DNA from: Chthoniobacterales bacterium
Lineage (GTDB): Bacteria > Verrucomicrobiota > Verrucomicrobiia > Chthoniobacterales > JACTMZ01
Direction: 5' to 3'
Assembly (NCBI GenBank): GCA_014879535.1
Contig: JACSRX010000021.1
Span: 1 to 64,000 of the forward strand
Length of the DNA stretch: 64,000 nt
Part shown: piece by piece, positions 1 through 32,613 of the stretch
Position numbering within the stretch: position 1 is the first letter of the stretch
Layout: the number at the start of each line of letters is the position of its first letter
Notes under the pieces: model-generated
What the model was told of the DNA's origin: nothing
The model's input: only the letters and a program-made list of their open reading frames with translations
Database searches by the model: none
Made by a program: the position numbers and the translations under genes

Positions 1-819
1 GGCGACTGGGAGGTCATTCTGGTGGACGACTGTGGTCCGGAGGACGGCACGCGGGAAGCGGTTGAGTCCCTCGCGCGGGAGCATCCTTCGAGGCGGATAG
101 AATACATCCGCAATGAGCAAAATGTGGGATGCAGTCACACCCGGAACATTGCGATGGCCGGGGCGAGGGGAGAGTTTCTTGCCTTCCTTGATCCGGATGA
201 CTACTGGGGACCTAGGCAACTTGAGATTGCGTTGCAGAGCATCGGGGATGCAGATCTCTGCTTCACCCGCGGCCGCTGCGTCGACGAGCGGGGCAGCGAC
301 TTGGGTCCCCACATGGGGGGGAGGATGGATGAGTTGGTGGCGGCATTTCCGCGTTCGATGTTCCGGGAAAATTTTCTCCTAATCTTCGCTGCGGTGATCC
401 GTCACGACTATATCCGCAAGGTCGGAGGTTTTATCACAAGAGAGCACGCTCTGGTTGGGGAGGATTGGGACTTCTACTTGCGGTGCATTGCTGCCGGTGC
501 GCGCTTCGTATTTTCCGCTGAGGAATGCTGTTACTACCGGCGCTATCAGGGGTCCTTAACGAGCGATTATCTTGGATCAGCGCGCGATTGCGTGCGGGTT
601 GTGCGCAGGAACCGACGCACAGCACGGGGGATCATGCGGAGAGATTTGACGGATGCCCTGCACGAACGGCTGTGCTGGCTTGCGTATCTGCTGACATCCT
701 TCCGGGATTGGGACGGGCTGAGGGACATGTGGGAGGCCTTGCGGCTAAAGCCTTTTGATGTGGCGCCGTTCGTGCAGGTGGCTAAGGGACTGCGCAACAA
801 CTGGAAATCGTTAAGATGA
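1..819 (+). CDS. Glycosyltransferase family 2, 5' end outside the window
   Basis: The reading frame is open from base 1 and begins inside the GT-A fold with VILVDDCGPEDGT, so the first ~29 codons lie upstream. The DPDD motif (residues FLDPDDYWGP) is the usual divalent-metal/nucleotide-sugar site of GT2 enzymes, which transfer a sugar from a nucleotide donor at the cytoplasmic membrane. The remaining 272 codons align end to end, without net gaps, with the second gene at 4252-5157, so this is one copy of a recent duplication. Codon use matches the GC-rich neighbours. Acceptor and donor cannot be told. Confidence 0.85.
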   Translation, partial: GDWEVILVDDCGPEDGTREAVESLAREHPSRRIEYIRNEQNVGCSHTRNIAMAGARGEFLAFLDPDDYWGPRQLEIALQSIGDADLCFTRGRCVDERGSDLGPHMGGRMDELVAAFPRSMFRENFLLIFAAVIRHDYIRKVGGFITREHALVGEDWDFYLRCIAAGARFVFSAEECCYYRRYQGSLTSDYLGSARDCVRVVRRNRRTARGIMRRDLTDALHERLCWLAYLLTSFRDWDGLRDMWEALRLKPFDVAPFVQVAKGLRNNWKSLR

Positions 820-1641
820 ATAGTCTGGCAACAGCAGGCAGCCTTTGCGGTGCCATGCTTGGTGCTATGGCCAGCGTTTCACGATCAGGGCAGCCGATGC
901 GCACTGAATGAGTCGTTTGGCCCGCTACGGTGCACATATTGTGGCTGAGCTACGGCAGTTCCCAGCTTCGACCGGATATTCTGCAACCGCGACCCGCTAA
1001 GGGCCATGATATCAGCCTTTTATCCAGAATAGTCGGTGGTTCCCTCTGAACATTGCAATCCTTGGCTTAGGTTAATAAGCGGGGATTGCTGATCGCTGTG
1101 CTCAAACTACATCCATGCGTTGATTGCGGGAACCGATAGCCTCATACAAATGCTATTTCAGGCGTGAAACTAGTCCACGATCGCGGGACAGGCGCCGATT
1201 TTCAGTAATTAACCGGGACTATTTTGTGGCCCTGCGGAATCGAATCCTCCGGATATGGCGAGCTTGGGTTCCGTCATCGCATTGGTGATCCCTCTCTCCG
1301 ATATGGAACTAAAACCTTTTAACAAATATGTTTTCACTCGCTCTAATCCCGGAGAGGCGATTGTCGCGTTTGAAATAGCTGTTCCGGAGGGGCCTGATCT
1401 GAGGGTGTGCTTTTAAGCGTGTCGACTGTTCTTGCCGGCACCTTCAGATGCTTTGGCTAGGGGGGGGGCATGATCTCGAGGGCTTGCGAGAAGACGAAGC
1501 GGCAAGAGAGCATTTTAAACGGTTGTGCCAAGCAGCAGCGAAAGATGACATCCTTTATGAGACGTGACATCGCCGATCTCAAGGAAGGGCTGCCATGTAA
1601 AACATGATGTGGCATTCAACTTGGAAGGCGTGACACTAAAA
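820..1641. other. Gene-poor, lower-GC stretch, probably decayed DNA
   Basis: About 820 bases contain no convincing gene on either strand. The base composition is visibly less GC-rich than the flanking GT2 genes. A 31-codon ORF (816-911) starts on the ATGA that ends the upstream GT2, at the place where the right-hand copy couples to its downstream gene. Bases ~1470-1607 read in short helical-looking segments (for example RRDIADLKEGLP at ~1560-1595) that are interrupted by stops in all frames, as in a dead gene. A run of nine G lies at 1460-1468. No promoter or terminator could be fixed with confidence. Confidence 0.55.
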
Positions 1642-3177
1642 ATGAATCGATTAACTGGCAGCAGTATTTTTTCGAAAAGACTGCGATTATCCACTGAGCT
1701 ATCAGTAATCGCGTTTATTGCGCTTATGGCGAGAAGCAGCTCAATAAGCGCGCTAAACTGGGCAAGTGATGACTACTCGCATGCCTTTAACCCGCCGGAT
1801 CAGTTCAGTTTCTGGCTGAGCCAGGGGCGATGGGTTCTCTACTGCATAAATGCCGCAGCTGTTGGACTGGGTGCATCTATCCCATTCGTCGGTGGCTTAT
1901 GGGGAATAGCGGAGGCCCTGGCACTTGCAGTTCTGGGTCTGCTATTGCGGCACTTTTGGGATCCGGGTGCACCCTCGGTCATTGGCATTGCTGTTGGATC
2001 AATAGTTGCGTTATCTCCTTACGCCACGGATTTAATGTCATACAATATCAATGGTCCGTGGTTCATTGTATGCATCCTTTCCAGTGCGGGTGTGCTTTTC
2101 TTGCTGAGCCAACACAACAACCAGCCAAGCAGCTTGATTGTTGTGTTGGCCTTGATAATAGTCACGTCCTATCAGGCCCTTGCGCTAATGATTGCTGCAA
2201 TTTTTGTGATAGATGCCCTCGTGAAGCTTGGGGGCGCAAATAATGGGGCTTTAGAAGATGGTAGGCGCGGTATACCAATGCTTGCTCATCGCCTGTTGCT
2301 GCTATTCGTGGCAGTAGCGGTAAATGCACTGATAACAATGGTTATTTGTGCAATCGCAGAGCAACAACTGCAAGCTAGGGGCCAGATCGTTGGCATAAGC
2401 GAGATTCCCGTCAGGCTAATGGCGGCTGCTTTGAAGATATACGATTACTGGGCTTGTGATGAGAGTTCTGTTCCGCGCGGTGCAAAGTTACTACAGATTT
2501 TTCTGCTTGGAGTCGTGATTGTTGGAATAGTAATAAGGTTTTTCAAATGCACTGCACGAAATTGGGTGCACCGATTTTTCGCCGCATGGGCGGCGCTAAT
2601 GGCGTTGTGTTTCAGTATTTGCATCCCTGTGGTGCCGTATTTCGCACTGAGAGAAAATACTGGCCTCATGACGCCGCGCATGATGCTACCATTGACAATT
2701 ACCTATGCTGGCATGCTCTGCGTGAGTTATGCTTTCTGCCCAAGGGGGGTGCGTGGTATTATCTGTGCGCTTGGTGTAATGCTGTGCATTTCGTATGCAC
2801 TGAAAGTCAACGAGCAAAGTGCGGATTTTTCCCGCGTGAATATTAGAGACCGATTACTGGCGAGTCGAATGATTGAGCGCTTCTCGACGATGTCTGATTA
2901 CAAGCGAATGAGAACGGCCGTCTTCGTTGGCGATATGACGGGTATCGGGGAATCTGGCATCCGAACGCGTGCAGTAAGTTTTAACGATTCGGCTTTTGTT
3001 ACGGTATGGTCCCGTGTGGGCCTTTTGAATGAGGTTGGTAGCCTCAACCTTTCAGAGCCGACAGCAAATGACATTGAAATGGCTAAGTTGGTGGCCAGGG
3101 GTAGGCCACATTGGCCTGCAGGAGGTTCTGCGTTTATTCAAGATGAAGTTGGCATCATTGTGGTCGGTGAGGAGTAA
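1642..3177 (+). CDS. GtrII-like membrane glucosyltransferase
   Basis: This is a 511-residue polytopic membrane protein with roughly ten or more hydrophobic segments. Near the N-terminus it has SDDYSH (residues 42-47) and then QGRW (61-64), the arrangement seen in GtrII-type glucosyltransferases (Glucos_trans_II), GT-C enzymes that use polyprenyl-linked sugars to decorate O-antigen on the outer side of the inner membrane. The ATG at 1642 is preferred over the GTG at 1564 because the extension has no family resemblance; GGAAGG lies 13 bases upstream. The GC content and codon use (many A/T-ending codons) are clearly lower than in every neighbour, which points to horizontal acquisition. The gtrA/gtrB partners are not visible nearby. 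The family call is good; the exact sugar is unknown. Confidence 0.7.
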   Translation: MNRLTGSSIFSKRLRLSTELSVIAFIALMARSSSISALNWASDDYSHAFNPPDQFSFWLSQGRWVLYCINAAAVGLGASIPFVGGLWGIAEALALAVLGLLLRHFWDPGAPSVIGIAVGSIVALSPYATDLMSYNINGPWFIVCILSSAGVLFLLSQHNNQPSSLIVVLALIIVTSYQALALMIAAIFVIDALVKLGGANNGALEDGRRGIPMLAHRLLLLFVAVAVNALITMVICAIAEQQLQARGQIVGISEIPVRLMAAALKIYDYWACDESSVPRGAKLLQIFLLGVVIVGIVIRFFKCTARNWVHRFFAAWAALMALCFSICIPVVPYFALRENTGLMTPRMMLPLTITYAGMLCVSYAFCPRGVRGIICALGVMLCISYALKVNEQSADFSRVNIRDRLLASRMIERFSTMSDYKRMRTAVFVGDMTGIGESGIRTRAVSFNDSAFVTVWSRVGLLNEVGSLNLSEPTANDIEMAKLVARGRPHWPAGGSAFIQDEVGIIVVGEE

Positions 3178-3430
3178 GTGGCTGTAGAGCGCATACCGAT
3201 ATTCAGATGTTACCTACAATTCATCAGGATGAGGCGACCAAGACATCAATGAGATCCTCCAGAAGCTGGTGCACGACCGCCGGGCAGCGCCACCGCGCAA
3301 TTCCCGGCTACAAATCCCAACGAATATGAATCCTAATGAACATTAGCATCTATCTGATTTCGAACAGGAGCCAAGCTTTGCCTGTCCCAGCGCCACTGCC
3401 GCGGCTGAAACGTTCAATGGTAAACACTCT

Positions 3431-4207
3431 ATGCAATCAATCGCTGCGCTGATCGTTCTTAGCTCGGCACACGAGGTCCTCTTCTGCCGCTATTTTGAGC
3501 CGACGCTGCCGTGGGGATTGCGCTTGGAAATCTTCGATATGGGCGCCAACCGCGGCGATGGGGCCTACATGAGCGGTGAATGGCAGGATGCAATGTGCGC
3601 AAAGGTCCGCCATGCCTTGGATTTCTGCCGGCGGTCCCCCGAGGGCGAGCCATTCATTGTTTCCGATGTTGATGTGCAGTTTTTTCCCGCGTTCGACGCG
3701 GCTGGCTTCCTGAAGTTGCTGGACGAGGCGGATGGCGACCTGGTGTTTCAGCGGGAGCGCTTTCGCGAGGGTGACCGGGAGGCGAATTGCGGGCTTTATG
3801 CAGGCAGGAACAGTGCCGCGGTGAGGAACCTCCTCGCAGCTTCGTTCGACAACCTCGAGAAGGACCCCATCAAGCACGAGCAGAATGCGGTGAACCGCAT
3901 GATGCGCGAGACCGGCTTCCGCTATGCCATGTTCGACCGCAGGTTCTACGCCCGCACGCACGGATTCCCGCCGCCGCGTGATCTCTGGACGCACCATGCG
4001 ACTTGGACAACGGACATCGCCAGCAAGATCAGGCAGCTCGAGCGCGTTCGTCGGGTTGTGCGGGGAGGGAGGCTGCGCCTCCATGTGGAATCCTATGCCG
4101 AGATGCTCCTGCGACCCCCGGCTGGAATCAGCCGGGCACGGTTTGTGGTGGAGGCGTCCGTAGGATTTCTCCGAAAGGTTCCTCTGTCGCCGGGCTCGCT
4201 GCCTTGA
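3431..4207 (+). CDS. Nucleotide-diphospho-sugar transferase-like protein
   Basis: This 258-residue soluble protein has the motif IVSDVDVQFFP at about residues 75-85, a DxD signature typical of the Nucleotid_trans (GT77-like) fold, followed by NCGLYAGRNS, where family members recognise the substrate backbone. It probably transfers a sugar during surface-glycan assembly. The ATG at 3431 has no strong ribosome-binding site. The preceding 253 bases (3178-3430) hold no gene; a stretch at ~3240-3345 reads as DINEILQKLVHDRR but is closed by stops. It precedes the second GT2 copy by 44 bases. Donor and acceptor are unknown. Confidence 0.65.
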   Translation: MQSIAALIVLSSAHEVLFCRYFEPTLPWGLRLEIFDMGANRGDGAYMSGEWQDAMCAKVRHALDFCRRSPEGEPFIVSDVDVQFFPAFDAAGFLKLLDEADGDLVFQRERFREGDREANCGLYAGRNSAAVRNLLAASFDNLEKDPIKHEQNAVNRMMRETGFRYAMFDRRFYARTHGFPPPRDLWTHHATWTTDIASKIRQLERVRRVVRGGRLRLHVESYAEMLLRPPAGISRARFVVEASVGFLRKVPLSPGSLP

Positions 4208-4251
4208 GGTCGGCATCGCTGTTCGCACTTTTTCATCAGCACACCGAGGGC

Positions 4252-5157
4252 ATGCCGTTGGTCAGCGTCATTCTTCCCAGCTTCCGCATGGGCCGATTCG
4301 TGCCGCAGGCGCTGGGTTCGGTCGGTGCGCAGACGCATGGCGACTGGGAGGTCATTCTGGTGGACGACTGTGGTCCGGAGGACGGCACGCGGGAAGCGGT
4401 TGAATCTTTCGCGCGGGAGCATCCTTCGAAACGGGTCGAATACATCCGGAACGCTGAAAACGTCGGATGCGGTCACAGTCGGAACATTGCGATGGCCGAG
4501 GCAAGGGGCGATTTCCTGGCCTTTCTCGATCCCGACGACTTCTGGGGACCGCGTTACCTTGAGCGTGCCGTGCGCGGCATCGGGAATGCGGACTTTTGTT
4601 TCTGCCGCTGCCGCAGTGTCGACGAGGATGGCAAGGATTTGGGGTCTCACACGGGCGGAAGGATGGAGGAGTTGGTTGCCGGGTTCCCCCGGTCTCTTTT
4701 TCGGGAAAATTTCCTCATTCCATCATGCACTTTCGTTCGGCGAAACGTCCCGGAGCGGTTCGCATTTTTCACGGCGCGCCGCGATGCGATGTATGCGGCC
4801 GATTGGGATTTTTATCTGCGGTGCATCGCCCGCGGGGCGCACTTCGTCTTTTTGGACGGCGAAGACTGCTACTACCGACGCCACGCTGGGGCGGCAACAA
4901 ACAACTATCTCAAAATGACAAACGAGTGCGTCCTGATCCTGCGGGACAACTGGCGTGCTGCCGGGGGTCTGATGAAAGGCGACTTGGCCGCCACGCTGCA
5001 TGAGCACCTGTGCCGGCTGGCCTATCTGAGGATCTCCTTCCGGATGTGGAGGGGCTTGGGCGACGCTTTCGAGGCATGGAGGCGCAAGCCGTTTGACGCG
5101 GCTCCCTTCGTGCAGGTGGCCCGGGGACTGCGCAACAATTGGAAGGATCTGCGATGA
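4252..5157 (+). CDS. Glycosyltransferase family 2 (complete duplicate copy)
   Basis: This 301-residue GT2 begins MPLVSVILPSF, the first strand of the GT-A fold, followed by ILVDDCG and FLDPDDFWGP (metal/nucleotide-sugar binding). It is the full-length relative of the truncated gene at the left edge. The frame is open upstream to 4003 because of overlap with the previous gene. ATG 4252, with GAGGG just before it, fits the family; an in-frame TTG at 4204 overlapping the upstream stop (TTGA) is an alternative. The stop overlaps the next start by four bases. It is probably a cytoplasmic-face transferase for one sugar of the surface polysaccharide. Confidence 0.88.
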   Translation: MPLVSVILPSFRMGRFVPQALGSVGAQTHGDWEVILVDDCGPEDGTREAVESFAREHPSKRVEYIRNAENVGCGHSRNIAMAEARGDFLAFLDPDDFWGPRYLERAVRGIGNADFCFCRCRSVDEDGKDLGSHTGGRMEELVAGFPRSLFRENFLIPSCTFVRRNVPERFAFFTARRDAMYAADWDFYLRCIARGAHFVFLDGEDCYYRRHAGAATNNYLKMTNECVLILRDNWRAAGGLMKGDLAATLHEHLCRLAYLRISFRMWRGLGDAFEAWRRKPFDAAPFVQVARGLRNNWKDLR

Positions 5158-6395
5158 GCGGCCGGTTGCCGCCTGGCCGTCTTGGGATCCGTGGCAAGTT
5201 GCTCGGCTTGATGGCATACATCGGCCGTATGGAACAGGCGGCGCACGTCCGGGCAAGGCATTTGGCCGGCGTGGGACCCGCGCCGGTGCGCATGCTTCTC
5301 CTGAGCGACGGACGATCCGCGCAGAGCGAAGCACAGTTCGACCCGATCTTCCGGAATCTTCCCGTGCTTCGCGAACGCTTCGGACTCGTCGTGGCCCGGG
5401 AGGCGTTGGATGCAGGGTGTCCGCCGTCACCGCATCGGCTTGCGGGATGGGACATCATCGGGTTCAAGCTTGATTACCGCACACCACCCGAAACCGTGGA
5501 GGCCGTGGCTCGGCACCTGGCCCGGTCGAAGCCGGCTGCCTCGGCGCTCGTTTACTGCGACGGCAATGACGAGATGACGGTCCAATGGCCTGGTTTGTTC
5601 CGCCACTGCGACGTTTACTGGAAAAAGCATGCCTTTCGGGACAGGAGACTTTACCGGCGGCGGTTTCGGGGTTCGACCAATCTCACGGAATACGCGTTGC
5701 CTCCCGGCGAGGGCGCCGTGCAGTCGGCGGGCGGGGCTTTCACGCCTCCCCCCGGCGACGGGGATTTGCAGAAATTGTTCGTGGGTTCCTCGGTGGGGCT
5801 CGACAGGAAGATCGCCGCGCTGCAACCGTTGCTGAAAAGCGGGTCTCCCGTGCCTCCGTTTGCGCAGCGCGAGAACGATGTCATTCTCCGTGCCGACGTT
5901 CCCGACAACTGGATGGGGAACCTGCGCCGCCCTGCAGCGGAGGTTCTGGCGGGATTGCAGGGGCGCCTGAAAATCCTGCTGCCGCACGGCCGCGTGCCGC
6001 CGCAGCAGTATGCGGAGGAAATGCTCACGAGCAAAATCTGTGTGTCACCCTTCGGATACGGTGAGATTTGCTGGCGCGACTTCGAGGCAGTTGCCTACGG
6101 GTGCCTGCTCATCAAGCCGGACATGGGTCATGTGGAGTCACGACCCGACATCTTCCAGCCCTTCAAGACCTACATTCCAGTGGCGTGGGATTTCAGCGAT
6201 CTCGAGCAGAAACTGCTGCATTGTCTGGAAAGCCCGGAGGAGTGTGTTCAGATCGTGGCGAATGCAAGACGTGTGCTGGCCGAGGCCCTTGAGCCGGGAT
6301 GGTTCGCCGGCGTCTTCGGGGAATTGCTGCAAGCTTCTGGAAACAGGACAAGCCAAAGACCGTTTCCTCCACAGCTCCACCCACGCGATGAATAA
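5154..6395 (+). CDS. GT-B-type glycosyltransferase, exostosin/CgeB-like C-terminal domain
   Basis: This is a 413-residue soluble protein. The C-terminal third carries KICVSPFGYGEICWRDFEAV then GCLLIKPDM (~residues 290-325), the pattern found in the donor-binding half of exostosin-like and CgeB-like transferases, where the acidic residue after the glycine-rich loop contacts the nucleotide. The N-terminal half has no clear motif. The start is the ATG at 5154, which overlaps the previous stop as ATGA and has GGAAGG upstream. It is followed by a 25-codon ORF that bridges to the next gene. Substrate unknown. Confidence 0.65.
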   Translation: MSGRLPPGRLGIRGKLLGLMAYIGRMEQAAHVRARHLAGVGPAPVRMLLLSDGRSAQSEAQFDPIFRNLPVLRERFGLVVAREALDAGCPPSPHRLAGWDIIGFKLDYRTPPETVEAVARHLARSKPAASALVYCDGNDEMTVQWPGLFRHCDVYWKKHAFRDRRLYRRRFRGSTNLTEYALPPGEGAVQSAGGAFTPPPGDGDLQKLFVGSSVGLDRKIAALQPLLKSGSPVPPFAQRENDVILRADVPDNWMGNLRRPAAEVLAGLQGRLKILLPHGRVPPQQYAEEMLTSKICVSPFGYGEICWRDFEAVAYGCLLIKPDMGHVESRPDIFQPFKTYIPVAWDFSDLEQKLLHCLESPEECVQIVANARRVLAEALEPGWFAGVFGELLQASGNRTSQRPFPPQLHPRDE

Positions 6396-8430: not shown

Positions 8431-9896
8431 TGAACCAAGACACACTGACTGGGGGAGGGACGGGGTTCGATCTGGGGTCGTTCGCCAAGGGGGTGCTGCT
8501 CTATCTCCTTTACCGGAAGAAAATTTGCTTCGACGAGAGTGAATATCGCAAAATCCATCTTCAAAGGGACCTCGGAATCTTCACCGGCATCTGGTTTCGT
8601 TTTCCCAAACTGCATTTTCTGGCGCATTTCTCGGACGACCCAGAAATGCAGGTCGCCGTGCTGGGCCAAGAGCTGCGGGTTCTGGTCGATGACGAAGAAT
8701 TTCGCGGGCGCTTCGATGCCGGGAAACCCACGGTCGTTTTTGTTTCCTACGATGTTGCGAGGGCCGGGGCGTCCAAAGTGGTCCTGGAAATCCTCAAAGA
8801 TTACGCCAAGACACACAACACGGTCTTCTTTTCGCTTGCCGGGGGCGACCGCAAGGCGACCTTCACGGACTGCGCGAGCTATTGCGTTTTCGAACTGGGA
8901 ACCCGCGGATGCCAGAAGCAGCTGCAGCGGCAGTTGGAACGCGTCGGACGCGTCGTCAGGCCGGAGCTCGCCATCGTCAACTCGATCGGTGCTGCCGAGG
9001 CTCTTGTGCCGCTCGCCGGGGCGGGCATTCCCCGGATGCAGCTCATCCACGAGATTGCCGATATCGAGGACCTTCGCCGTTTCGAAACGGTCGCGCGCTT
9101 TGCCGATGCGACCGTGTTTCCCGCGAATTTCGTCCGCGACCGGGCGCTCAATGTCTGCGCGGGGCTGGACGCTTCCAAATGCCAGGTTCTTCCGCAGGGG
9201 GTCTTCGAGGAGAAGGACGATCCGGAGGATGGCGGGACGGAAGGCGTCCGCTCGGGACTCCTGCCGGCATCATGGGACGACGGCAGCATTGTGGTCCTCG
9301 GCGTTGGAGGCGTGAACTTCCGAAAGGGGGTGGACTTGTTTCTCATGTGCGCGGGGCTGGTCGGGGGCAAGTTCCCCGGGGAGAAGGTGAGATTCCTCTG
9401 GGTGGGATTCGGCTACGAGAGTATCTCCACGGAGTTTCCGGCCTATCTGCGGCACCAACTGCGGGTGACCCAGCTTGCCGACGTCGTTCACTTCACCGGG
9501 GAACTCCGCGACCTGCCCGCAGCGTATGCCTGCGCTGACATCTTCTTCCTCCCGTCGCGGCTCGACCCTTTGCCCCTCGTCGCCCAGCAGGCGATGGACT
9601 GCGGTTTGCCGGTTGTCTGCTTTGACGAAGCGGGTGGCATCCCGGAGTTCCTTCGGGCGGATCCGGTTGCAGCAGGCGGTGTGGTCGGCTATCTGGACGT
9701 GCCGGCGGCCGCCGGCAAAATCATGGCCTTTGCAGCCGACCCCGAGCTGAGAAACCTGGTGGGAGAGGCCGGGCGCAGGGTGGCGCGGTCCGCGTTCGAC
9801 ACAGAGACCTACATCGAGTCGATCCGCAGCCTCGGGCGGCGGCTTTGCGTGGGGGGCGTGCGCAGAACGGCCGAGCCACCTCCCCCGGGGCGTTGA
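8427..9896 (+). CDS. Glycosyltransferase family 4
   Basis: The 489-residue protein has an N-terminal ~90-residue extension before the GT-B fold, which starts at VVFVSYDVARAGASKVV. The C-terminal domain has VLGVGGVNFRKGVDLF (~residues 290-305), DIFFLPSRLDPLPLVAQQAM and CFDEAGGIPEF, the standard GT4 donor-binding region with the conserved acidic residue near S/P-R-x-D-P. It should transfer a sugar from a nucleotide donor to a lipid-linked chain. ATG 8427 overlaps the stop of a small ORF; ATG 8430 is equally possible. Neighbours suggest surface glycan synthesis. Confidence 0.8.
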   Translation: MMNQDTLTGGGTGFDLGSFAKGVLLYLLYRKKICFDESEYRKIHLQRDLGIFTGIWFRFPKLHFLAHFSDDPEMQVAVLGQELRVLVDDEEFRGRFDAGKPTVVFVSYDVARAGASKVVLEILKDYAKTHNTVFFSLAGGDRKATFTDCASYCVFELGTRGCQKQLQRQLERVGRVVRPELAIVNSIGAAEALVPLAGAGIPRMQLIHEIADIEDLRRFETVARFADATVFPANFVRDRALNVCAGLDASKCQVLPQGVFEEKDDPEDGGTEGVRSGLLPASWDDGSIVVLGVGGVNFRKGVDLFLMCAGLVGGKFPGEKVRFLWVGFGYESISTEFPAYLRHQLRVTQLADVVHFTGELRDLPAAYACADIFFLPSRLDPLPLVAQQAMDCGLPVVCFDEAGGIPEFLRADPVAAGGVVGYLDVPAAAGKIMAFAADPELRNLVGEAGRRVARSAFDTETYIESIRSLGRRLCVGGVRRTAEPPPPGR

Positions 9897-9913
9897 TCAA
9901 GACGGCGGCGGAA

Positions 9914-11854
9914 ATGACAAGAATCGGATACCGCGCCGACATCGACGGACTGCGCGCTTTCGCGGTTCTCGCCGTCGTCGCCTACCATGCGTTTCCCGAG
10001 TTGGTTCCCGGGGGATTCATCGGCGTCGACATTTTTTTTGTCATCTCGGGATACCTGATTTCGGGGATCCTCTACAAGGGGCTGCGCGAGGGGGATTTTG
10101 CTTTCGGCGACTTTTACGCGCGTCGGGTCAGGAGGCTCTTTCCTGCCCTGCTTGTCATGGTGGTCATGTGCATGTCCTACGGGTGGCTTGTGCTGCTGCC
10201 CGGCGAATTTGCGCAACTCGGCGGCCATGTCGCGGCGGGGCTTGTCTTCGCCCAGAACATCGTCTTCTGGCAGCAGACGGGATACTTCGATCCTGCTTCC
10301 AGCCTGAAGCCGTTGCAGCACCTTTGGACCCTTGCGGTGGAGGAGCAGTTCTACATCTTCCTCCCTCCGCTGCTGATGCTGTTCTGGAAAAACCGCTGGC
10401 CGACGGCGTCTGTCCTGTGGGCGGTGCTGCTCGTTTCCTTCGCTGCCAACCTGCTGGTGGTGGGGATCGACATGAACGCGGCATTTTTCCTCACACCCTT
10501 CCGAGCGTGGGAGTTTCTCGCCGGATCACTGCTTGCGTGGCATGATTTCGGAAGGCGGGATCACCGCGACTTCAGGTTTTCCGGGATTCTTTCGGCGGTC
10601 GGTTTGGGCCTTCTCATTGCCGCGACATTCTTGATGAGGCATGGCGAACCCTATCCCGGCTGGAAGGCCGTGATGCCTGTCGCGGGATCCGCAATTCTCA
10701 TAGCCGCCGGGCCGAGCACATGGATCAACAGGTCCATCCTCTCAAATGGCATCGCCGTCTGGATCGGGTTGATCAGCTATCCTCTGTATCTCTTCCACTG
10801 GCCGGTTCTTTCCTATGTGCACATCGTCGAGGGGCCCGATCCCCGCTGGCGTGTGATCGCGGTGGCATTGGTGATCAGCTTCGCCCTGACCGTGGCCACC
10901 TATTACTGGGTCGAAAGACCCATCCGTCGTGCCATGTCGCCGCGCGCGGTGCATCTGCTCGTCGCGGTCTTCGTGCTCGTCGGGCTCGCCGGGATGTTCG
11001 CGTGGCAGGGGCTGATTCCCGGGAGGCAGCCGGTCGGAACCGGGGAGATCGAGAACGCGGTCAATGACCGGGACGTTTTCGCAGGCTATACCGAGTCGAA
11101 CCCCTACGATTCCCCGGTGGTGCTTTATTCCATCGGCGCCGAGCCATTCCACACCGTTGTTCTCGGTGACAGCAACGCCATGCATTATGCGCCGCGTTTC
11201 AGAAAGTTGGTCGAGGAGAACCCCGATGCTGGCGGTGTCGTTTTCGTGACTTTCGGAGGCGCGCCCGCCATTCCCGACATCGAGAGATCCGACATGCCGC
11301 AAATCATGGAGCTGGTGCTCGTTTTCGAGCGGGTCCTGAGAGACAACCCCGGAATCAGGCGTGTCGTGATTGCGGGGTTGTGGCACGGCTACTTCCGGCC
11401 GGGAAACAACTACAAGATCCACGGCTTCTCGCTGAGCGTTCCAGAGGGACGCGACGCCGCGCTGGGTGCGATCGGTCGGCTTGTTGCGAGCCTTGTTCCG
11501 GCCAAGAGGGTTGTCGTGGTTTCCAGCATTCCTTCAGGCGAGGAACTGGGGCCGAAGGCTTTCGTGGAGCGGGGCTATGGAGGCTTCCGCATCGCCCCCT
11601 CGCCGGTGCTCACCGAGGCCGTCTTCCTTCGGAACTTCGGGGAAATCAACCGCAGGATCCGCGAGGTGGCGCGGGATCACGGTGCCGAGGTGATCGATCC
11701 GTTGGTTGACCTCTGTTCGGACGGCGTGTGTATCAGTGCCAACAAAGATGGCCCCATCAGGTTCGACCCGGATCACCTCAGGCCCGGTTTCGTGCGGGAC
11801 AACCTCCGTTGCCTCGACATTGTGGCGGAGCCGCGAGCCATGGATGCCCGTTAG
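9914..11854 (+). CDS. OafA/YrhL-type membrane O-acyltransferase with SGNH domain
   Basis: This is a 646-residue protein. The N-terminal acyltransferase-3 domain (about ten membrane segments, residues ~1-370) begins with RADIDGLRAFAV and includes the catalytic-type histidine in YHAF (~25) and LWTLAVEEQFY (~136-146). The C-terminal periplasmic SGNH-type domain has VLGDSNAMHY (~415) and DPDHLRP (~618), giving the Ser and the Asp-His pair. Such fused enzymes move acetyl groups across the membrane and onto polysaccharide. ATG 9914 follows GGCGGCGG; an in-frame TTG at 9893 overlapping the previous stop is possible. It is the first member of the O-acylation group at 9.9-18.1 kb. Confidence 0.92.
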   Translation: MTRIGYRADIDGLRAFAVLAVVAYHAFPELVPGGFIGVDIFFVISGYLISGILYKGLREGDFAFGDFYARRVRRLFPALLVMVVMCMSYGWLVLLPGEFAQLGGHVAAGLVFAQNIVFWQQTGYFDPASSLKPLQHLWTLAVEEQFYIFLPPLLMLFWKNRWPTASVLWAVLLVSFAANLLVVGIDMNAAFFLTPFRAWEFLAGSLLAWHDFGRRDHRDFRFSGILSAVGLGLLIAATFLMRHGEPYPGWKAVMPVAGSAILIAAGPSTWINRSILSNGIAVWIGLISYPLYLFHWPVLSYVHIVEGPDPRWRVIAVALVISFALTVATYYWVERPIRRAMSPRAVHLLVAVFVLVGLAGMFAWQGLIPGRQPVGTGEIENAVNDRDVFAGYTESNPYDSPVVLYSIGAEPFHTVVLGDSNAMHYAPRFRKLVEENPDAGGVVFVTFGGAPAIPDIERSDMPQIMELVLVFERVLRDNPGIRRVVIAGLWHGYFRPGNNYKIHGFSLSVPEGRDAALGAIGRLVASLVPAKRVVVVSSIPSGEELGPKAFVERGYGGFRIAPSPVLTEAVFLRNFGEINRRIREVARDHGAEVIDPLVDLCSDGVCISANKDGPIRFDPDHLRPGFVRDNLRCLDIVAEPRAMDAR

Positions 11855-11872
11855 TCTGCCGATCCCATTGCC

Positions 11873-13060
11873 TTGAGAGTTTCGCTGAGCAGTCCGGATG
11901 GACTCGGGGATTTTGTTCTCCGCCTGCCGATGATTGATGCCCTGTTGCGCGAAGGGCACGATCTTCAGTTGCTCATGCGGCCGCCAGCGGCGGAGCTTGC
12001 ACATGCCCTGCTTCCCGAGGCGGAGGTTCACGTCATCGGCTGCGATCCCTGGCACGGGACAACACGGCAACGGCTCGATCCGTTTGCTGAGGATTTCGAG
12101 GTGCTTGCGCGCTTCAATCCCGACTTGTTCGTCGCGGCGGCATTCCAGACGACATTTTTCGACGAGCAGTGGCTGGCCTCGGGGTTCGCCCGGATCCGCA
12201 GCGTGGGATTCGTTTCCGCGGATGGGGCTGGCGCGGAGGCGCCTTCTTGGTCTGTTGCCGTCTCCGTGCCCGTCGCGATGCCTGAAACCGAGAAATGCCG
12301 GCACTTGGCCATGGCGATCACCGGACATGAGATGCGATTCGACCCGCCACGGCAGCCCGGTTCCGACGATGTGGCCCGCGCCGAAAAGTTGCTCGCGGAG
12401 ATCGGCGTCCCCGCGCATGGGTTCATCGTGGTCTGCGCCGGGAACCGCCCGGGATTGGTCTTGAAAGACTGGGGGGAGTCGAGGTGGGGTCGGCTTTTGG
12501 CGGCGATGGCACGGGAAGATCGCCGACCCCTGGTCTTTCTCGGCAATCCAAAAGAGGCGGCATCCATCGACAGAATCCGCAAGACCCTTCCGGCGGGAAC
12601 ATCCAGCATCAGTCTGGCATCGAGCCCCCCGCCGGTGCCCGTGACGCACGCGTTGGTTTCATTGTCCGCCGCGTATCTCGGGCGCGATTCCGGACCCATG
12701 CATTTGGCCGCGGCGACGGGGCGCCCTTTGCTGGCGCTGTTTGGCGGGGCGCATTGGCCGCGGTTTGTTCCGCCGGCCCCGGAGGGCGTGATTCTCACGT
12801 GCGCGACGCCGTGCCGCGGTTGCAATTTCGACTGTCCTTTCCCCGAACCCCACTGCGTTTCCGGCATTCCCGAGGAACGCGTTATGGAGGCGTGGCGCTC
12901 GCTGGGGGGCATGCACGGGCTGCGGGTGATCGAAATTCCACCCGGTGAGTCATGGTTGGAGCAGCATCGCGAAGTCATGACCCGGCGGAACAGTCGTCGC
13001 GCAGCCTCTTTGGTGCAAACACTGCAGGCTGCGTTGGGAAGGTTGATTTCGGGTGCCTGA
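11873..13060 (+). CDS. Heptosyltransferase-like protein (GT9)
   Basis: The 395-residue protein has the GT9 layout: an N-terminal SPDGLGDFVLRLP loop where family members have GxxGD, and in the C-terminal half RDSGPMHLAAATGRPLLALFGG (~residues 270-291), the ADP-heptose-binding signature. A cysteine cluster near the end (CATPCRGCNFDCPFPEPHC) matches the metal-site-like cysteines seen in many GT9 proteins. The start is TTG at 11873, the only codon that preserves the first strand. It lies 18 bases after the acyltransferase gene. It suggests that a lipopolysaccharide-core-like or related heptose transfer is part of this locus. Confidence 0.8.
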   Translation: MRVSLSSPDGLGDFVLRLPMIDALLREGHDLQLLMRPPAAELAHALLPEAEVHVIGCDPWHGTTRQRLDPFAEDFEVLARFNPDLFVAAAFQTTFFDEQWLASGFARIRSVGFVSADGAGAEAPSWSVAVSVPVAMPETEKCRHLAMAITGHEMRFDPPRQPGSDDVARAEKLLAEIGVPAHGFIVVCAGNRPGLVLKDWGESRWGRLLAAMAREDRRPLVFLGNPKEAASIDRIRKTLPAGTSSISLASSPPPVPVTHALVSLSAAYLGRDSGPMHLAAATGRPLLALFGGAHWPRFVPPAPEGVILTCATPCRGCNFDCPFPEPHCVSGIPEERVMEAWRSLGGMHGLRVIEIPPGESWLEQHREVMTRRNSRRAASLVQTLQAALGRLISGA

Positions 13061-13080
13061 CGATGGGTGGTTGTTGTCGC

Positions 13081-14514
13081 ATGGTTTTCAGCTCCCACAT
13101 CTTTCTTTTCTATTTCCTGCCCCTGGCGCTGGCGGCGAGTTTGCTGGTTCCGCGGCGGCTGTGGCTCGGGGTGCTCGCGGTTTTCAGCTACGCGTTCTAC
13201 GGCTGGGCGAATCCGGCCTTCATGCTGCTGATGATGTTTTCCACCTTGGTGGATTACGTTTGCGGGCTGTGGCTGGCCGGGGAGGCGCGGCGGCGTTTGA
13301 GCGAGGGAACCGCCGGGAGAACCGTCCGGGAGAAGCTGGCGCTCTGGATTTCAATTGTCACGAACCTCTCGCTCCTCGGTTTTTTCAAATACTTCAACTT
13401 CGCCGCGGAAAACTACAAGGCATTGACGCAGCATCTGGGATGGGCGGCTCCCGATTTTTTCCTCGAGGTGACGCTGCCCCTCGGCATCAGCTTCTACACG
13501 TTCCAGTCGATGAGCTACACCATCGACATCTACCGCGGGGAGGCGAAGGCCATGCGCAGTTTTGCGGGATTCGCCGCGTATGTGTCGATGTTCCCACAAC
13601 TTGTCGCCGGCCCCATCGTCCGCTTCCAGACGGTGGCACGCCAACTCCGCCGCCCGGACCGCACATGGTCCGCCTTTGCTCGCGGGGCGGCCTGTTTTTC
13701 GCTCGGGCTCGGCAAGAAGGTGCTTCTGGCCAACCCGTGCGGCAAGGTGGCCGACCTCATGTTCGGGACGGATTCGGCTGGAATGCTGGAATCGTGGATC
13801 GGGATGTTCGCCTACTCGTTCCAGATTTATTTCGATTTCAGCGGGTATTCCGACATGGCGATCGGTCTCGGGCTGATGCTCGGGTTCCGATTCCCGATCA
13901 ACTTCAACTCGCCCTACCGCGCACACAGCATCACCGATTTCTGGCAGCGGTGGCACATTTCGTTGTCCACATGGCTGCGCGACTACCTTTACATCCCGCT
14001 GGGTGGCAGCCGACGGGGGGATCTGCGCACGTATGCGAACCTGCTCACCGTGATGTTTCTCGGGGGTCTGTGGCACGGTGCGTCCTGGAACTTCGTGATC
14101 TGGGGGAGTGTGCACGGGGTTTTGCTGGCGGTTGAACGCGCGATGCCCGGGAGGAGTCTGTGGGCGCGTTTGCCGAGACTTCTCCAAGTGTCGCTCACAT
14201 TCACGGTTGTTTCGCTCGCATGGGTGCTGTTCAGGGCGCCGGATCTCGCGGGGGCCATGGACTACTACGCCCGGTTGGCCGGCCTTGGTCACGGGGGGGA
14301 ACTGGCCGCATTGATGGGCGCCCTGGTGTGGAAACCGCTTTTTGTCGCCACGATGATCCTTGCGGCCTTGGTGGTCTGGTTCGGGCCGACAACACTCGAT
14401 TGGTCCCGCCATCTCACGGCACCCAAAGCCGTGTGGTCGCTTGCCGTGTTCTGGGGCGCGGCCCTCATGCTCAGCGTCCAGAAATTCAACCCTTTTATCT
14501 ACTTCATCTTCTGA
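13081..14514 (+). CDS. MBOAT O-acyltransferase, AlgI family
   Basis: The 477-residue polytopic protein begins MVFSSHIFLFYFLPL, the typical AlgI start, and carries FWQRWHISLSTWLRDYLYIPLGG (~residues 284-306) and LWHGASWNFVIWG (~330), which contains the catalytic MBOAT histidine. It should pass an acetyl group through the inner membrane to a periplasmic partner. ATG 13063, two bases after the previous stop, is an alternative start adding six residues. The AlgX/AlgJ-like partner follows after two bases, as in alginate-type O-acetylation operons. No alginate polymerase genes are present, so the polymer is a different one. Confidence 0.93.
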   Translation: MVFSSHIFLFYFLPLALAASLLVPRRLWLGVLAVFSYAFYGWANPAFMLLMMFSTLVDYVCGLWLAGEARRRLSEGTAGRTVREKLALWISIVTNLSLLGFFKYFNFAAENYKALTQHLGWAAPDFFLEVTLPLGISFYTFQSMSYTIDIYRGEAKAMRSFAGFAAYVSMFPQLVAGPIVRFQTVARQLRRPDRTWSAFARGAACFSLGLGKKVLLANPCGKVADLMFGTDSAGMLESWIGMFAYSFQIYFDFSGYSDMAIGLGLMLGFRFPINFNSPYRAHSITDFWQRWHISLSTWLRDYLYIPLGGSRRGDLRTYANLLTVMFLGGLWHGASWNFVIWGSVHGVLLAVERAMPGRSLWARLPRLLQVSLTFTVVSLAWVLFRAPDLAGAMDYYARLAGLGHGGELAALMGALVWKPLFVATMILAALVVWFGPTTLDWSRHLTAPKAVWSLAVFWGAALMLSVQKFNPFIYFIF

Positions 14515-14516
14515 TC

Positions 14517-16205
14517 ATGCACCGTCCGAACGTGGATGTGCCGTTGAAGTTTCCGGGTTCTGTTCCCTATGCCTCGGGCTGGGAACGCACCGTGGTCGCG
14601 CGTCCGGTGGCCATCGGATTGTCCATCGTCTTCTGCCTCGGGTTGCTGTCGGTTCCGGCCATAGATGCATGGCGTGGGGACTGGGGGGCACCCGTGCAGG
14701 CAGTTCGCTCCGGAACCGGGGCGGTCGTGCGGGCTTTGTCCGGCGATGGGCCGTGGTGGAGGCGCCTGCTCGAGGCCAATCGCGTCGCGCTGGCCGGAAT
14801 CAAGAAATTCGAGACGGCCGTGGAGGATTCCTCGGTGGCAGCTTCGGCTGTGCGTCCGGCAACCCTCGATGCGCTGCTGCGTCATGGCGGGGCCGGCAGC
14901 GAGGAAGCCTATGTGGGGGGCGATGGATGGTTGTTCTACCGGCGCGATGTGGATGCCTTGATGCGTCCGGAGGGCGCGGGGAAGAGGGCTCCCGAGGCGA
15001 TTGCGGAATTCGCCGCCGACCTGGCATCGCACGGGGTGCGCCTGGTCTTCATGCCGGTGCCGGGCAAAGCATCCATTCATCCCGAGCATCTGGGTTCAGG
15101 ACGCGCATTTGACCATCCTCTGATGCCCGTCAGGTGGGAGGCATTGCGGGAGGATGTGCTGCGCGCATGGAAGTCGGAGATTGCAGCGAGGGGTTTGCAG
15201 GATGCACGGCCCCCCGTGGTGTTCGACCCGGCACGGGTGCTTTGGAACCGGAAGCAGATGTCGCGCGGAGACCAATATCTGGCGACCGACAGCCATTGGT
15301 CGCCGGAGGCGATGGAGGCGGTTGCGGCGGACTTGGCGGCGGTTCTTGTTGCCGAAGGCGCCGCGCCTCCGATGGCGGCGTTTCCGGAGCCGGGGTCGAT
15401 TTGGGTTTCAGGGCTGGGCGACACGGCCCGCATGCTTGAGCTTCCGGAAGGTTCGCCGCTGCGCCGTGAGCAGAAGGTCGTCATCCGGCCTGTGATGGGC
15501 ATCGGTGGGAAACCGTGGATGCCGGATCGGTGGGGCGAAGTTGTGCTGCTCGGCGACAGCTACACGAACATATATTCCTCGAAGGACCTTGGCTGGGGGG
15601 AATCGGCAGGGCTGGCCGAGCAATTGTCGCGGTTCCTCGGCGTCCCGGTTGACAGGATCTCCCGCAACGACGCCGGGGCACTCGAGGCCCGGAGGATGCT
15701 CGCGGCGGCTGCGGCGAAGGACCCGGAGTGGCTCCGTGGCAAGAAGGTGGTTGTCTGGCAGCTGGCGGCGAGGGAGCTTGTTGAAGGGGACTGGAGTCCT
15801 GTCGCCTGGCAGGGTGAGGTGGCTGCTTCCGCGGGGTTTTTTGTCGCGCCGCCGGGGCATGCCGTCGAGGTTGTGGCGAGTGTTGCCGGAGTCGGTCTGG
15901 TGCCGCGGCCGGGAACAACGCCGTATGCGGACTTTCTGACGGCCGTCCACCTCACCGACCTTCGGGATGCTGCAAGCGGCAAATCTCTCGACGGCGAGTC
16001 TCTGGTTTATGTATTCACGATGCGTGGCCACCGACTTCTTCCCGAAGCCGCCCTGTCATCCGGTCAGCGGGTGCGGGCGCGCCTGTCAAACTACGGCGAT
16101 CAGGCGGCCACACTGGATTCATTGAACCGCGGCGAGTTGGACGATGTCGATGTGATGCTGGAAACACCGAACTTTGCGCCATGGATTGAGCCGTGGCGGC
16201 CCTGA
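14517..16205 (+). CDS. AlgX/AlgJ-like periplasmic O-acetyltransferase
   Basis: The 562-residue protein has one N-terminal membrane segment (~residues 27-50) and then a periplasmic SGNH-like domain. GGDGWLFYRRDVD (~134), ATDSHWSPEAME (~256, the Asp-x-His pair) and LLGDSYTNIYSS (~343, the nucleophile serine) are the diagnostic blocks of AlgX/AlgJ proteins, which receive acetyl from an AlgI-type MBOAT and load it onto the polysaccharide. The ~200-residue C-terminal part could be a carbohydrate-binding module as in AlgX. It begins two bases after the MBOAT gene, so the two are surely a pair. Confidence 0.88.
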   Translation: MHRPNVDVPLKFPGSVPYASGWERTVVARPVAIGLSIVFCLGLLSVPAIDAWRGDWGAPVQAVRSGTGAVVRALSGDGPWWRRLLEANRVALAGIKKFETAVEDSSVAASAVRPATLDALLRHGGAGSEEAYVGGDGWLFYRRDVDALMRPEGAGKRAPEAIAEFAADLASHGVRLVFMPVPGKASIHPEHLGSGRAFDHPLMPVRWEALREDVLRAWKSEIAARGLQDARPPVVFDPARVLWNRKQMSRGDQYLATDSHWSPEAMEAVAADLAAVLVAEGAAPPMAAFPEPGSIWVSGLGDTARMLELPEGSPLRREQKVVIRPVMGIGGKPWMPDRWGEVVLLGDSYTNIYSSKDLGWGESAGLAEQLSRFLGVPVDRISRNDAGALEARRMLAAAAAKDPEWLRGKKVVVWQLAARELVEGDWSPVAWQGEVAASAGFFVAPPGHAVEVVASVAGVGLVPRPGTTPYADFLTAVHLTDLRDAASGKSLDGESLVYVFTMRGHRLLPEAALSSGQRVRARLSNYGDQAATLDSLNRGELDDVDVMLETPNFAPWIEPWRP

Positions 16206-16228
16206 GGTGCCGCACTGAGGAGTAAACC

Positions 16229-17098
16229 GTGAACAAAGCCAAGGAATCCCCATCGAAAAGCAACCAGATACCAGCCGCCGCGCGCAGCGCTTTGCTGCCC
16301 GGTTCCGACTCTGACCGCGAAAAGAGGGTGGCGACCATTGGCGCCCTCACGGGGTTGCGTCATGAAAACGGCCGCTACCGGCGGGCGAACTTCGAGAGGG
16401 CGCTGCTTCTTGACGCCATCGTTGCCGCATTGCGTCCGGCGGATGTCCTGGAATTGGGGACGGGGCGTGGACTGGGTGCACTGGCCATGGCTGCGGCAGC
16501 CCACGGGCACGGTTTCCGAACGCGCATCACCACAGTCGATGTCCTGCCTGCCGGTGCGCGACAGCACTGGCCCATCGAGACCGGAGGGCGGCGCGAGATC
16601 CGACAAACCAGCAGGACCGAGGTGTGGTCGGAGCACTTCCCCGCGGAGTGGCGCGGCATGATTTCCGAGGTCACCGGACTCACGACAGAATTTCTGCCGC
16701 GCCTGCTCAGGGAGGGGAAAACCTACGATTTCATTTTCATTGATGCGGGCCACGATCTTTTCAGCGTGGTGCATGACTTGAGCTACGCGGCAATGCTGCT
16801 GGCGCCCGGAGGCTGGATCCTGATGGATGATTTTGCGCCGGCATCGGACTACGGCCTGGCGACCTGTCTGGCGTCATCCCATGCGCGGCGGTCATTCCGC
16901 GTGATCGAGGTGCTGGTCACCGAGGGGGTGGTGTTCGGCGATGCGGAGTTGCCGGGCCTGCCGCGTTCCATGGTGCTCTTGGGGGAACGATCCCCGGGAA
17001 TCGGATTGCACAGGAGTCGGTTGTGGTTCTGGAAACTGGCGGGCAAGATTCTCGACCTGAGTTTCCGTCCGTCGTTGTTCCCCCTGGCCGCGGAGTGA
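16229..17098 (+). CDS. Class I SAM-dependent methyltransferase
   Basis: The 289-residue protein contains VLELGTGRGLGALA (~residues 73-86), the glycine-rich SAM-binding motif I, TTVDVLP at the end of strand 2, and FIFIDAGHDLFSV (~168), a motif of the Methyltransf_24 group. The GTG start has a strong upstream GAGGAG with good spacing, unusual in this otherwise overlap-coupled run, so it may be translated independently. Its place between two AlgX-like genes suggests methylation of a sugar in the same polymer, but the target is inferred only from context. Confidence 0.75.
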   Translation: MNKAKESPSKSNQIPAAARSALLPGSDSDREKRVATIGALTGLRHENGRYRRANFERALLLDAIVAALRPADVLELGTGRGLGALAMAAAAHGHGFRTRITTVDVLPAGARQHWPIETGGRREIRQTSRTEVWSEHFPAEWRGMISEVTGLTTEFLPRLLREGKTYDFIFIDAGHDLFSVVHDLSYAAMLLAPGGWILMDDFAPASDYGLATCLASSHARRSFRVIEVLVTEGVVFGDAELPGLPRSMVLLGERSPGIGLHRSRLWFWKLAGKILDLSFRPSLFPLAAE

Positions 17099-17179
17099 CT
17101 TCGAGGACTCCCGGAGCCGCAGCCTTCATTGCCCAAAACCGCCGATTCGCATGATGTCTGGAATCCCGACCCCCGCAGA

Positions 17180-18139
17180 ATGGATCTTACCGTCCGAATC
17201 CTGACACTGCTCCTGCTTGTCCCGGTCGCCGTGCTTCATGCCGGGGAAGAACTGGTGGTGCGGGCGGATGCCGCGATGGCGCACCGTGAGGCGTTCGTGG
17301 CCGGGGAGGGTGGTTGGCGGTTCCTGCCGGCCGAACTGCGATTCGCCGCAGCGCTCGCTTCGCCGGAGATCGGAACGAAAGTCGCCCCTGCTGTGGTCGC
17401 GATTTCCGATTTCGCGGCGCAACTGCGTGCGCTCGGCATCAAATTGATCGTGGTGCCCGTGCCGCCCAAGGCCCTGCTGCAGGGTGCAAGCCTCGGACTC
17501 TCCCCACACGAGCAGGAAGCGATGCGGAGCGGATGGGAAAAGATCATGGTGGAGCTCGGATCACACGAGGTGACAGTCGTCGATCTTGCGCCGGGCTTTG
17601 CGAGCCTGGCGGACAATCCCTACTGCTTGCGCGATACGCATTGGTCGGGGGATGGGGTCTCCTTGGCTGTCGCCAAGATTCTTCCGCTTCTGGAGCATGC
17701 CGGCCTCGAGGTCGGTCATCCCGCCGGTGCTCCTCCCGGGGACTGGACGGAGAAGACCATCACGGGCGATCTGGGGGGGGAACCCGAGCAGGTTCGCCTG
17801 CAGTTCCGGAATTTCGATTCCAACCCGGCGGAAACAAAGGAGCATCCGTTGCTCCTCGTGGGAGACAGTCATCTGCTGGTTTTCCACAGCGGCGGGGACA
17901 TGCATGCCGCAGGGGCGGGGCTTCCGGACCAGCTGGCCGCCGCGTTGGGGGCGATGCCCGATGTGATCGGCGTGCGGGGATCGGGAGCCACCAGTTCGCG
18001 TGTGGCTCTGGCCCGACGTGCACGCTCGGACACCGCTTATCTTTCCGGGAAAAAAGTCGTGGTCTGGTGTTTCGCCGGACGAGAATTCACGGAGGCCGAT
18101 TCATGGAAAATGATCCCCATCCAGCGCAAGACGCCCTGA
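17180..18139 (+). CDS. Second AlgX/AlgJ-like SGNH protein
   Basis: This is a 319-residue exported protein with a signal peptide (MDLTVRILTLLLLVPVAVLHA). It keeps the three AlgX blocks in short form: GEGGWRFLPAEL, LRDTHWSGDGVSLA (~150) and LLLVGDSHLLVF (~223), giving the Asp-His pair and the serine nucleophile. It lacks the extra C-terminal domain of its 562-residue relative. ATG 17180 is chosen because it starts directly before the signal peptide. It probably acts as another periplasmic O-acetyl acceptor enzyme served by the same MBOAT protein. An eight-G run at 17773-17780 lies in the coding sequence. Confidence 0.8.
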   Translation: MDLTVRILTLLLLVPVAVLHAGEELVVRADAAMAHREAFVAGEGGWRFLPAELRFAAALASPEIGTKVAPAVVAISDFAAQLRALGIKLIVVPVPPKALLQGASLGLSPHEQEAMRSGWEKIMVELGSHEVTVVDLAPGFASLADNPYCLRDTHWSGDGVSLAVAKILPLLEHAGLEVGHPAGAPPGDWTEKTITGDLGGEPEQVRLQFRNFDSNPAETKEHPLLLVGDSHLLVFHSGGDMHAAGAGLPDQLAAALGAMPDVIGVRGSGATSSRVALARRARSDTAYLSGKKVVVWCFAGREFTEADSWKMIPIQRKTP

Positions 18140-26958: not shown

Positions 26959-27818
26959 AACGGGTTGCAATCACCGGTGCACGAGGGCGTCTCGCGCCCG
27001 GGGTTGCTGCGTTTCTCGGAGACCACGGATGGTCGGCTGCGTTGTTCTCGCGGACGGCTTCCCACGGGATCCGTGAAATATCCTCGCTCGCTTCACCCGC
27101 GGTTTTGGGGGAATTCGATGCCGTCCTTCATCTCGGGTGGAGTTCTGTGCCCTTGCTGAGCGAGGAAAGTCCGGGCATCGAGGAGCGCGAGGACTTTCCG
27201 TTCGCGCGCGCGCTGGCGGCCGCGGTGGCATCCTGTGGAAATCCGCCCCTCCTCGTTTTCGCATCCAGCGCGGCGGTTTACGGCAACACCGGGGAGGTGG
27301 TCGCCGACGAGCAAGCACCGTGCAGCCCCCTGGGGCGCTATGCGGCGGCCAAGCTCGAGGCGGAGCAAATTCTTTCCTCCGCCCCCCGCGTGTGCACCCT
27401 GCGCATCACCAACGTCTTCGGGATCGGGGGAGGGGCGACGCGACCGCAGGGCATCATCCCGCGGCTGATCGGGGCTTGTCGCACCGGAGCGGAAGTCACG
27501 ATCTGGGGTGAGGGCAACGCGATGAAAGATTATCTCTCTGTTGCAGATCTGCACGAGGGCATCCTCAGGATCCTGGACGCTGAGGTCACTGGTATCTTCA
27601 ACGTGGCTTCCGGGCATGTGTTGTCGGTGAATGAACTGATCGCCCTGGTGGAGACCGCCGTTGGATCGCCGCTGTTGCGTGTGGCTGCCCCGCCATTCCG
27701 GTGGGATGTCCGATGCTCGCGGATCTCCGCGGCGGCTTTGCAGCAGCGTTCCGGTTGGGCCGCCCGCATTGATCCCGCTCAAGCCATCAGGCAGATGGCG
27801 AGGGACACCGCCACATGA
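26955..27818 (+). CDS. NAD-dependent epimerase/dehydratase (extended SDR)
   Basis: The 287-residue protein starts MKRVAITGARGRLAPGVAAFL, a slightly altered Rossmann dinucleotide-binding motif. It has FASSAAVYG (~residues 101-109) and GRYAAAKLEAE (~127), giving the catalytic Ser/Tyr/Lys set, then RITNVFG and DYLSVADLHEGI, typical of nucleotide-sugar 4-epimerases and dehydratases. It would supply a modified nucleotide sugar to the surrounding transferases. Which sugar cannot be told from sequence alone. Four-base overlaps at both ends. Confidence 0.85.
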   Translation: MKRVAITGARGRLAPGVAAFLGDHGWSAALFSRTASHGIREISSLASPAVLGEFDAVLHLGWSSVPLLSEESPGIEEREDFPFARALAAAVASCGNPPLLVFASSAAVYGNTGEVVADEQAPCSPLGRYAAAKLEAEQILSSAPRVCTLRITNVFGIGGGATRPQGIIPRLIGACRTGAEVTIWGEGNAMKDYLSVADLHEGILRILDAEVTGIFNVASGHVLSVNELIALVETAVGSPLLRVAAPPFRWDVRCSRISAAALQQRSGWAARIDPAQAIRQMARDTAT

Positions 27819-32542: not shown

Positions 32543-32613
32543 GGGCAATCCGCACGTTAAATGAGATCGAACGTCCTGCAAGATCACGGAGGCCATGCGA
32601 TGGGGCGCACCCG

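Follow-up and report, generated by a model that had tools for sequence, protein, structure and literature searches.

A directly repeated two-gene cassette around a low-GC insert with a GtrII-family gene in a polysaccharide locus of a Chthoniobacterales bacterium

Introduction

How did two collinear copies of a GT2 glycosyltransferase gene come to lie on either side of a low-GC segment, and why are copies that differ along most of their length identical exactly where a contig begins? These questions are raised by the window analysed here, a stretch of 64,000 nucleotides that equals bases 1-64000 of contig C6 of a Chthoniobacterales bacterium (genome of 3.17 Mb in 97 contigs, 95.9% complete). 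An earlier note on this DNA had described a single duplicated GT2 gene (1-819 and 4339-5157, collinear and equal in length) bracketing low-GC DNA that extends to 4250, with near-identical first 65 or so bases as a sign of recent conversion, and had proposed that recombination or insertion had diversified a surface-glycan locus.

This paper describes the repeat, the DNA between its copies and the surrounding locus. The data argue, with reasonable though not high confidence, for a glycan locus of an uncultured bacterium that has changed in three layers: a cassette was duplicated long ago, foreign DNA was inserted, and a short, local exchange by gene conversion followed later.

Materials and Methods

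Base composition was sampled in stretches over about 109 kb of the bacterium's own genome (mean GC 0.630, sd 0.028). For comparison within the genus, the prephenate dehydratase gene, which is present in 10/10 other genus genomes, served as the reference point, and in each genome a stretch of up to 13 kb next to it was compared. The contig of G001 opens 394 bases before scpA and the stretch of G007 is without scpA; both were uninformative.

Results

The repeated unit consists of two genes in direct orientation, a Nucleotid_trans (PF03407) gene followed by a GT2 gene. The repeat is thus not a single GT2 gene as had been supposed, since the Nucleotid_trans gene also has a second copy, on contig C88, with 82% protein identity. 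In the second cassette, Nucleotid_trans occupies 3431..4207 on the + strand (34.5 bits, above the curated cut-off of 22; E 2.7e-8) and the complete GT2 gene 4249..5157 (+; PF00535, E 2e-27). GT2 copy 1 (1..819, +; PF00535, E 1e-18) runs from codon 30 or 31 to its stop; base 1 of the window is base 1 of C6 and lies inside this gene, and the copy begins there because the contig does. The two GT2 copies score 68.3 and 96.6 bits against the PF00535 profile, both above the curated cut-off of 23.3.

The missing 5' part of GT2 copy 1 is found on C88 (96,319 bases), directly after Nucleotid_trans copy 1 (L024:13423-14199, or G000:C88:95422-96195 without the stop), which like its counterpart encodes 258 aa. 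A search with GT2 copy 2 matched C88:96243-96317 (25 residues at 96%), the extreme end of that contig, and alignment of this end places the start of GT2 copy 1 at L024:14244-14320, its first base lying 77 bases from the C88 end. Because C88 stops 77 bases into a GT2 gene and C6 opens with the remainder, we infer that C88 runs into C6, across a junction that is not read through; approximately ten bases between them, equivalent to 4329-4338 in copy 2, have no readable counterpart.

Two overlapping frames immediately before Nucleotid_trans copy 1 (L024:12692-13410) look like one gene split by a frameshift and have no noteworthy Pfam match. Downstream of the second cassette, an unrepeated Glyco_trans_1_2 (PF13524) gene (5154..6395, +) begins inside the stop of GT2 copy 2 (ATGA). 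Elsewhere in the genome, contig C18 carries one more GT2 paralogue, which is less closely related (39% identity; L026, about 5158-5829, - strand) and is adjoined by another GT2-like stretch.

The description of 1-819 and 4339-5157 as collinear copies of equal length was borne out: they show 70.6% nucleotide identity over 820 aligned columns, and the protein alignment is ungapped. From Nucleotid_trans into GT2 the identity is 77.4% over 882 columns, and the joined copies are 72.5% identical over 1717 compared columns. The DNA similarity of the C88 end to the window starts within Nucleotid_trans, and upstream of that gene blastn detected nothing in common between the two. Among degenerate codons for identical residues, half (178/356) show a synonymous difference. 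Outside the identity tract described below, Nucleotid_trans has a dS of 1.69 and a dN of 0.11, and GT2 a dS of 1.49 and a dN of 0.28; judged by these dS values of about 1.5-1.7, the cassette copies are old outside this one short tract.

The exception to this divergence lies at the start of the GT2 genes. In copy 2 the tract spans 4274..4403 (+): its first part, 4274-4328, is the same as the final 55 bases of C88, and its right half, 4339-4403, is identical in 65/65 bases to 1..65 (+) of the window, so that the tract straddles the contig break and all 120 of its 120 readable bases are identical. The near-identity of the first 65 bases was therefore real and even complete, but base 1 is not the start of the gene and the tract extends across the break (55 + 65). 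Base-by-base alignment showed scattered differences between the GT2 copies past these 65 bases. Even if none of the ten unread bases agreed, identity over the 130 bases of the tract would be 92%. None of the 36 degenerate codons in the tract differ, versus 73 of the 154 codons for identical residues in the remainder of GT2; at that rate, and with codons treated as independent, the chance of 0/36 is about 9e-11. The longest identical runs, 65 and 55 bases, also exceed the maximum of 48 seen in 20,000 column shuffles. As assembled, the tract thus has a synonymous identity far above that of its flanks, as is found in gene conversion, and it suggests a short, later conversion event, in agreement with the recent conversion that had been proposed; as it lies at a contig break, reads are needed for proof. 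In the GT2 codons just past the tract (4404-4680) dS is 0.90 versus 2.7 and 2.0 elsewhere, which may reflect an earlier exchange in the same part, although these values are near saturation and are not relied on.

The position of the tract makes it necessary to consider that its identity arose or was exaggerated during assembly, with consensus or copy-2 sequence from merged paths at the tips of C88 and C6. The tract lies exactly where two contigs end, ten bases were lost between them, and several of the contig tips examined (82/194) end in sequence in common, so this assembly breaks at shared sequence: among the tips compared, three same-sided pairs overlap by 69 bases, opposite tips by 63-66, and one further tip by 41. 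Such groups, with 63-69 bases in common, involve the tips of contigs C1, C15, C19, C21, C38, and C39, and are consistent with short repeats that end contigs. However, the C88 and C6 tips have 55 and 65 bases in common with copy 2, not the 69 of the other same-sided tips, and an exact k-mer explanation of the C88-C6 break was rejected, as the break is similar to, but not the same as, the usual tip pattern (65/55 versus 63-69). Most of the tract (4284-4403) occurs at three places only in the genome, the C88 end, the C6 start, and the internal copy. Moreover, in short-read assembly, paths with approximately 27% differences are not expected to merge; the copies differ by about that much overall, so that the break itself needs high true similarity. 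Had two similar paths been merged, the ten bases could have disappeared and a few true differences could have been erased, but as the origin of the tract we consider an assembly effect rather unlikely.

Comparison with other genomes bears on whether the cassette was duplicated in place. The Nucleotid_trans gene was found in none of the ten other genus genomes at E 0.001, and the GtrII gene that lies between the cassettes was likewise present in 0/10 of them. A conserved order with uniform divergence in relatives, which would have marked an old and stable arrangement, was not found, and divergence between the copies is strongly non-uniform. In a wider set, the Nucleotid_trans profile matched 8/384 genomes, this one included; in three fetched neighbourhoods from the seven others no close GT2 relative adjoined the gene, and in one of them GT2 matches were present at 23-25% identity only, 2-4 kb away. 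A scan of genome contigs with Nucleotid_trans copy 2 gave no named close relative of the cassette.

These results leave some room for separate acquisition of the two cassettes as already diverged homologues. Their dS is near saturation and the Nucleotid_trans gene is lacking in 10/10 other genus genomes, as this explanation would have it; against it, both copies share the same gene order, the same 258-aa Nucleotid_trans, and a host-like GC, and such a pair turned up in no other genome, three neighbourhoods having been compared from the seven others with a Nucleotid_trans match. We therefore regard separate acquisition as unlikely, with the reservation that no single-cassette relative was found, so that duplication in place and two acquisitions are not separated.

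Between the cassettes lies an insert (820-3430) with a single intact GtrII-family ORF and, over about 740 bases, no recognisable gene. The expectation of low GC between the copies was correct as to composition, the 2.58-kb stretch from base 801 having a GC of 0.50, the lowest of all stretches sampled, but not as to extent: the low-GC DNA ends at approximately 3430 and not at 4250, as the Nucleotid_trans gene at 3431-4207 (GC 0.616, GC3 0.74) resembles the rest of the locus and is part of the second cassette, outside the insert. The ORF (1564..3177, +; PF14264, E 1.2e-13, 51.4 bits, cut-off 30) is listed from a GTG at 1564, an ATG at 1642 being the likelier start. Its GC is 0.493 and its GC3 0.50, versus a GC3 of 0.67-0.79 in ten neighbouring genes. 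A simple hydropathy scan gave nine hydrophobic segments, as in a polytopic membrane protein, and the product is predicted to be a membrane glucosyltransferase-like protein. A 16-nt inverted repeat (94% complementary, 11-nt loop) is located inside the ORF at 2108-2150.

The ORF is preceded by a stretch in which no gene is recognisable (820..1563, GC 0.522) and the longest stop-free reading is 67 aa, and followed by a spacer (3178..3430, GC 0.514) that forms the right end of the insert. The stretch 820-1563 has no Rfam match and no similarity to the compared genome pieces or the relatives' loci. A decayed gene was considered for it and rejected, as scans of three of the five stop-free readings of at least 45 aa gave no noteworthy Pfam match. 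A remnant of the 5154-6395 gene after GT2 copy 1 was also tested, both GT2 stops lying in ATGA. Here a reading of 31 aa (816-908) gave an alignment with P 0.007, but at the DNA level it aligned no better than other stretches that start with ATG, a fraction of 0.145 to 0.66 of which scored as high or higher, and no remnant is claimed.

The insert is present once in the genome. The GtrII protein matched 1/213 genomes of the order, its own, and 2/387 in the phylum sample, its own included and the other at 22% identity; there was no match in phages or plasmids, and a phage or plasmid origin of the gene thus found no support at the protein level. The PF14264 family as such matched 19/387 genomes of the phylum sample, ten of which exceeded the cut-off; both counts include the own genome. 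In three fetched neighbourhoods of such genes in other genomes, ABC exporter genes were present in two, and the three PF14264 genes had a GC of 0.51-0.55 versus 0.56-0.57 around them; part of the low GC of the insert could thus be normal for genes of this kind. In three further members (L047, L049, and L051) the GC is 0.65-0.73, and low GC is therefore no property of the family at large. Because no match exists in other genomes of the order, the insert is probably foreign, and horizontal transfer is its simplest reading, though not a proven one.

The window holds no tRNA, positions 1-6000 gave no Rfam match, and only short imperfect repeats were seen, none bracketing the insert. Promoter- and terminator-like sites were at chance level. 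A mobile element as carrier finds no support in these results; no insertion mechanism is therefore visible, and an old, eroded element may lie behind the insert.

Counted from Glf, the polysaccharide locus extends over about 41 kb, split over C88 and C6. Upstream on C88 lie, in a row, Glf (PF03275), an ABC-2 permease (PF01061; L024:10893-11816), and an ABC ATPase (PF00005; L024:11869-12681), which together with the downstream genes make up an ABC-dependent polysaccharide locus if C88 and C6 are adjacent. Downstream, to about 35.3 kb in the window, glycosyltransferases of several families, an SGNH-domain acyltransferase, MBOAT, and AlgX-like genes are encoded, together with an epimerase and a methyltransferase, followed by scpA and prephenate dehydratase. 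The genes of O-acetylation type (acyltransferase with SGNH domain, MBOAT, and AlgX-like) are grouped at 9845-18136, pointing to a putatively acetylated polysaccharide.

In the genus, a glycosyltransferase block adjoining scpA in G008 (L239) matches the window at 26.7-35.3 kb (26718-35269) with 31-68% identity, and G009 has a single glycosyltransferase match (39%), which lies where the compared stretch ends, about 1.8 kb from scpA. No such match was found in the 4.5-10 kb beside scpA in G002, G003, G004, G005, G006, and G010. As judged from these gene contents, the locus varies within the genus. The LeuB protein encoded on C88 has its closest matches among Verrucomicrobia records, a single-protein result that suggests no more than the phylum.

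Discussion

The reading that we favour is that a PF03407-GT2 cassette in an ABC-exporter polysaccharide locus would have been duplicated directly long ago, after which the copies diverged; that an A+T-richer segment carrying a single GtrII-family gene ended up exactly between them, probably by horizontal transfer; and that a later gene conversion of about 130 bases, possibly somewhat longer, re-homogenised the start of both GT2 genes. The likely effect would be two related but different sugar additions and side-chain glucosylation on the same surface polysaccharide. The sequence itself shows the two cassettes and how far they have diverged, the tract as assembled, the foreign composition, and the limits of the insert; the joining of C88 to C6, duplication in place, transfer, conversion, and function are inferred. 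Of the diversification driven by recombination or insertion that the earlier note had envisaged, the duplication and the insertion between the copies are supported, but a causal relation between the two, in either direction, cannot be shown.

It is quite doubtful that the arrangement acts as a recombination switch, in which a crossover between the tracts of approximately 130 bases, 4.3 kb apart, excises the GtrII gene and Nucleotid_trans copy 2. If it did, a hybrid GT2 gene would be left, and variants that possess the side-chain transferase would coexist in the population with others that lack it; should the tract indeed recombine, such surface-glycan variation would be directly testable in existing metagenome reads. 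The tract encodes the start of the GT-A fold, a usually conserved region, but its maintenance by protein-level selection is very improbable, as it is identical at synonymous sites too (0/36 versus 73/154). More generally, a contig break can mimic or hide local sequence exchange.

Several known systems invite comparison. Gtr clusters for O-antigen glucosylation (gtrA, gtrB, and a gtr-type gene) are described for Shigella flexneri and its phages, and gtrA/B/II for Pseudomonas donghuensis (PMC3259042, PMC8509367). The insert resembles these clusters in that its ORF matches Glucos_trans_II (PF14264), and differs in that there is no three-gene cluster here and no phage or plasmid match. The GtrA family (PF04138) had no match in the own genome (0/1) versus matches in 7/14 control genomes, and instead of an adjoining gtrA and gtrB, as in serotype-conversion clusters, the ORF has the two cassettes as its neighbours.

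Homogenisation of tandem paralogues by gene conversion is a known class of events, and a literature search, judged by title, found no paper on it in glycosyltransferase loci. The old direct duplicates described here, with one short tract identical including its synonymous sites, are of this kind, with the difference that the tract sits at a contig break and is unproven without reads. Finally, in ABC-transporter-dependent O-polysaccharide loci (wzm/wzt with glf), the likeness lies in Glf, the ABC-2 permease, and the ATPase, followed here by many glycosyltransferases, whereas the present locus is split over two contigs. Seen beside these systems, the locus is an ordinary, if tidy, case of diversification, and nothing in it departs from the known ways in which polysaccharide loci change.
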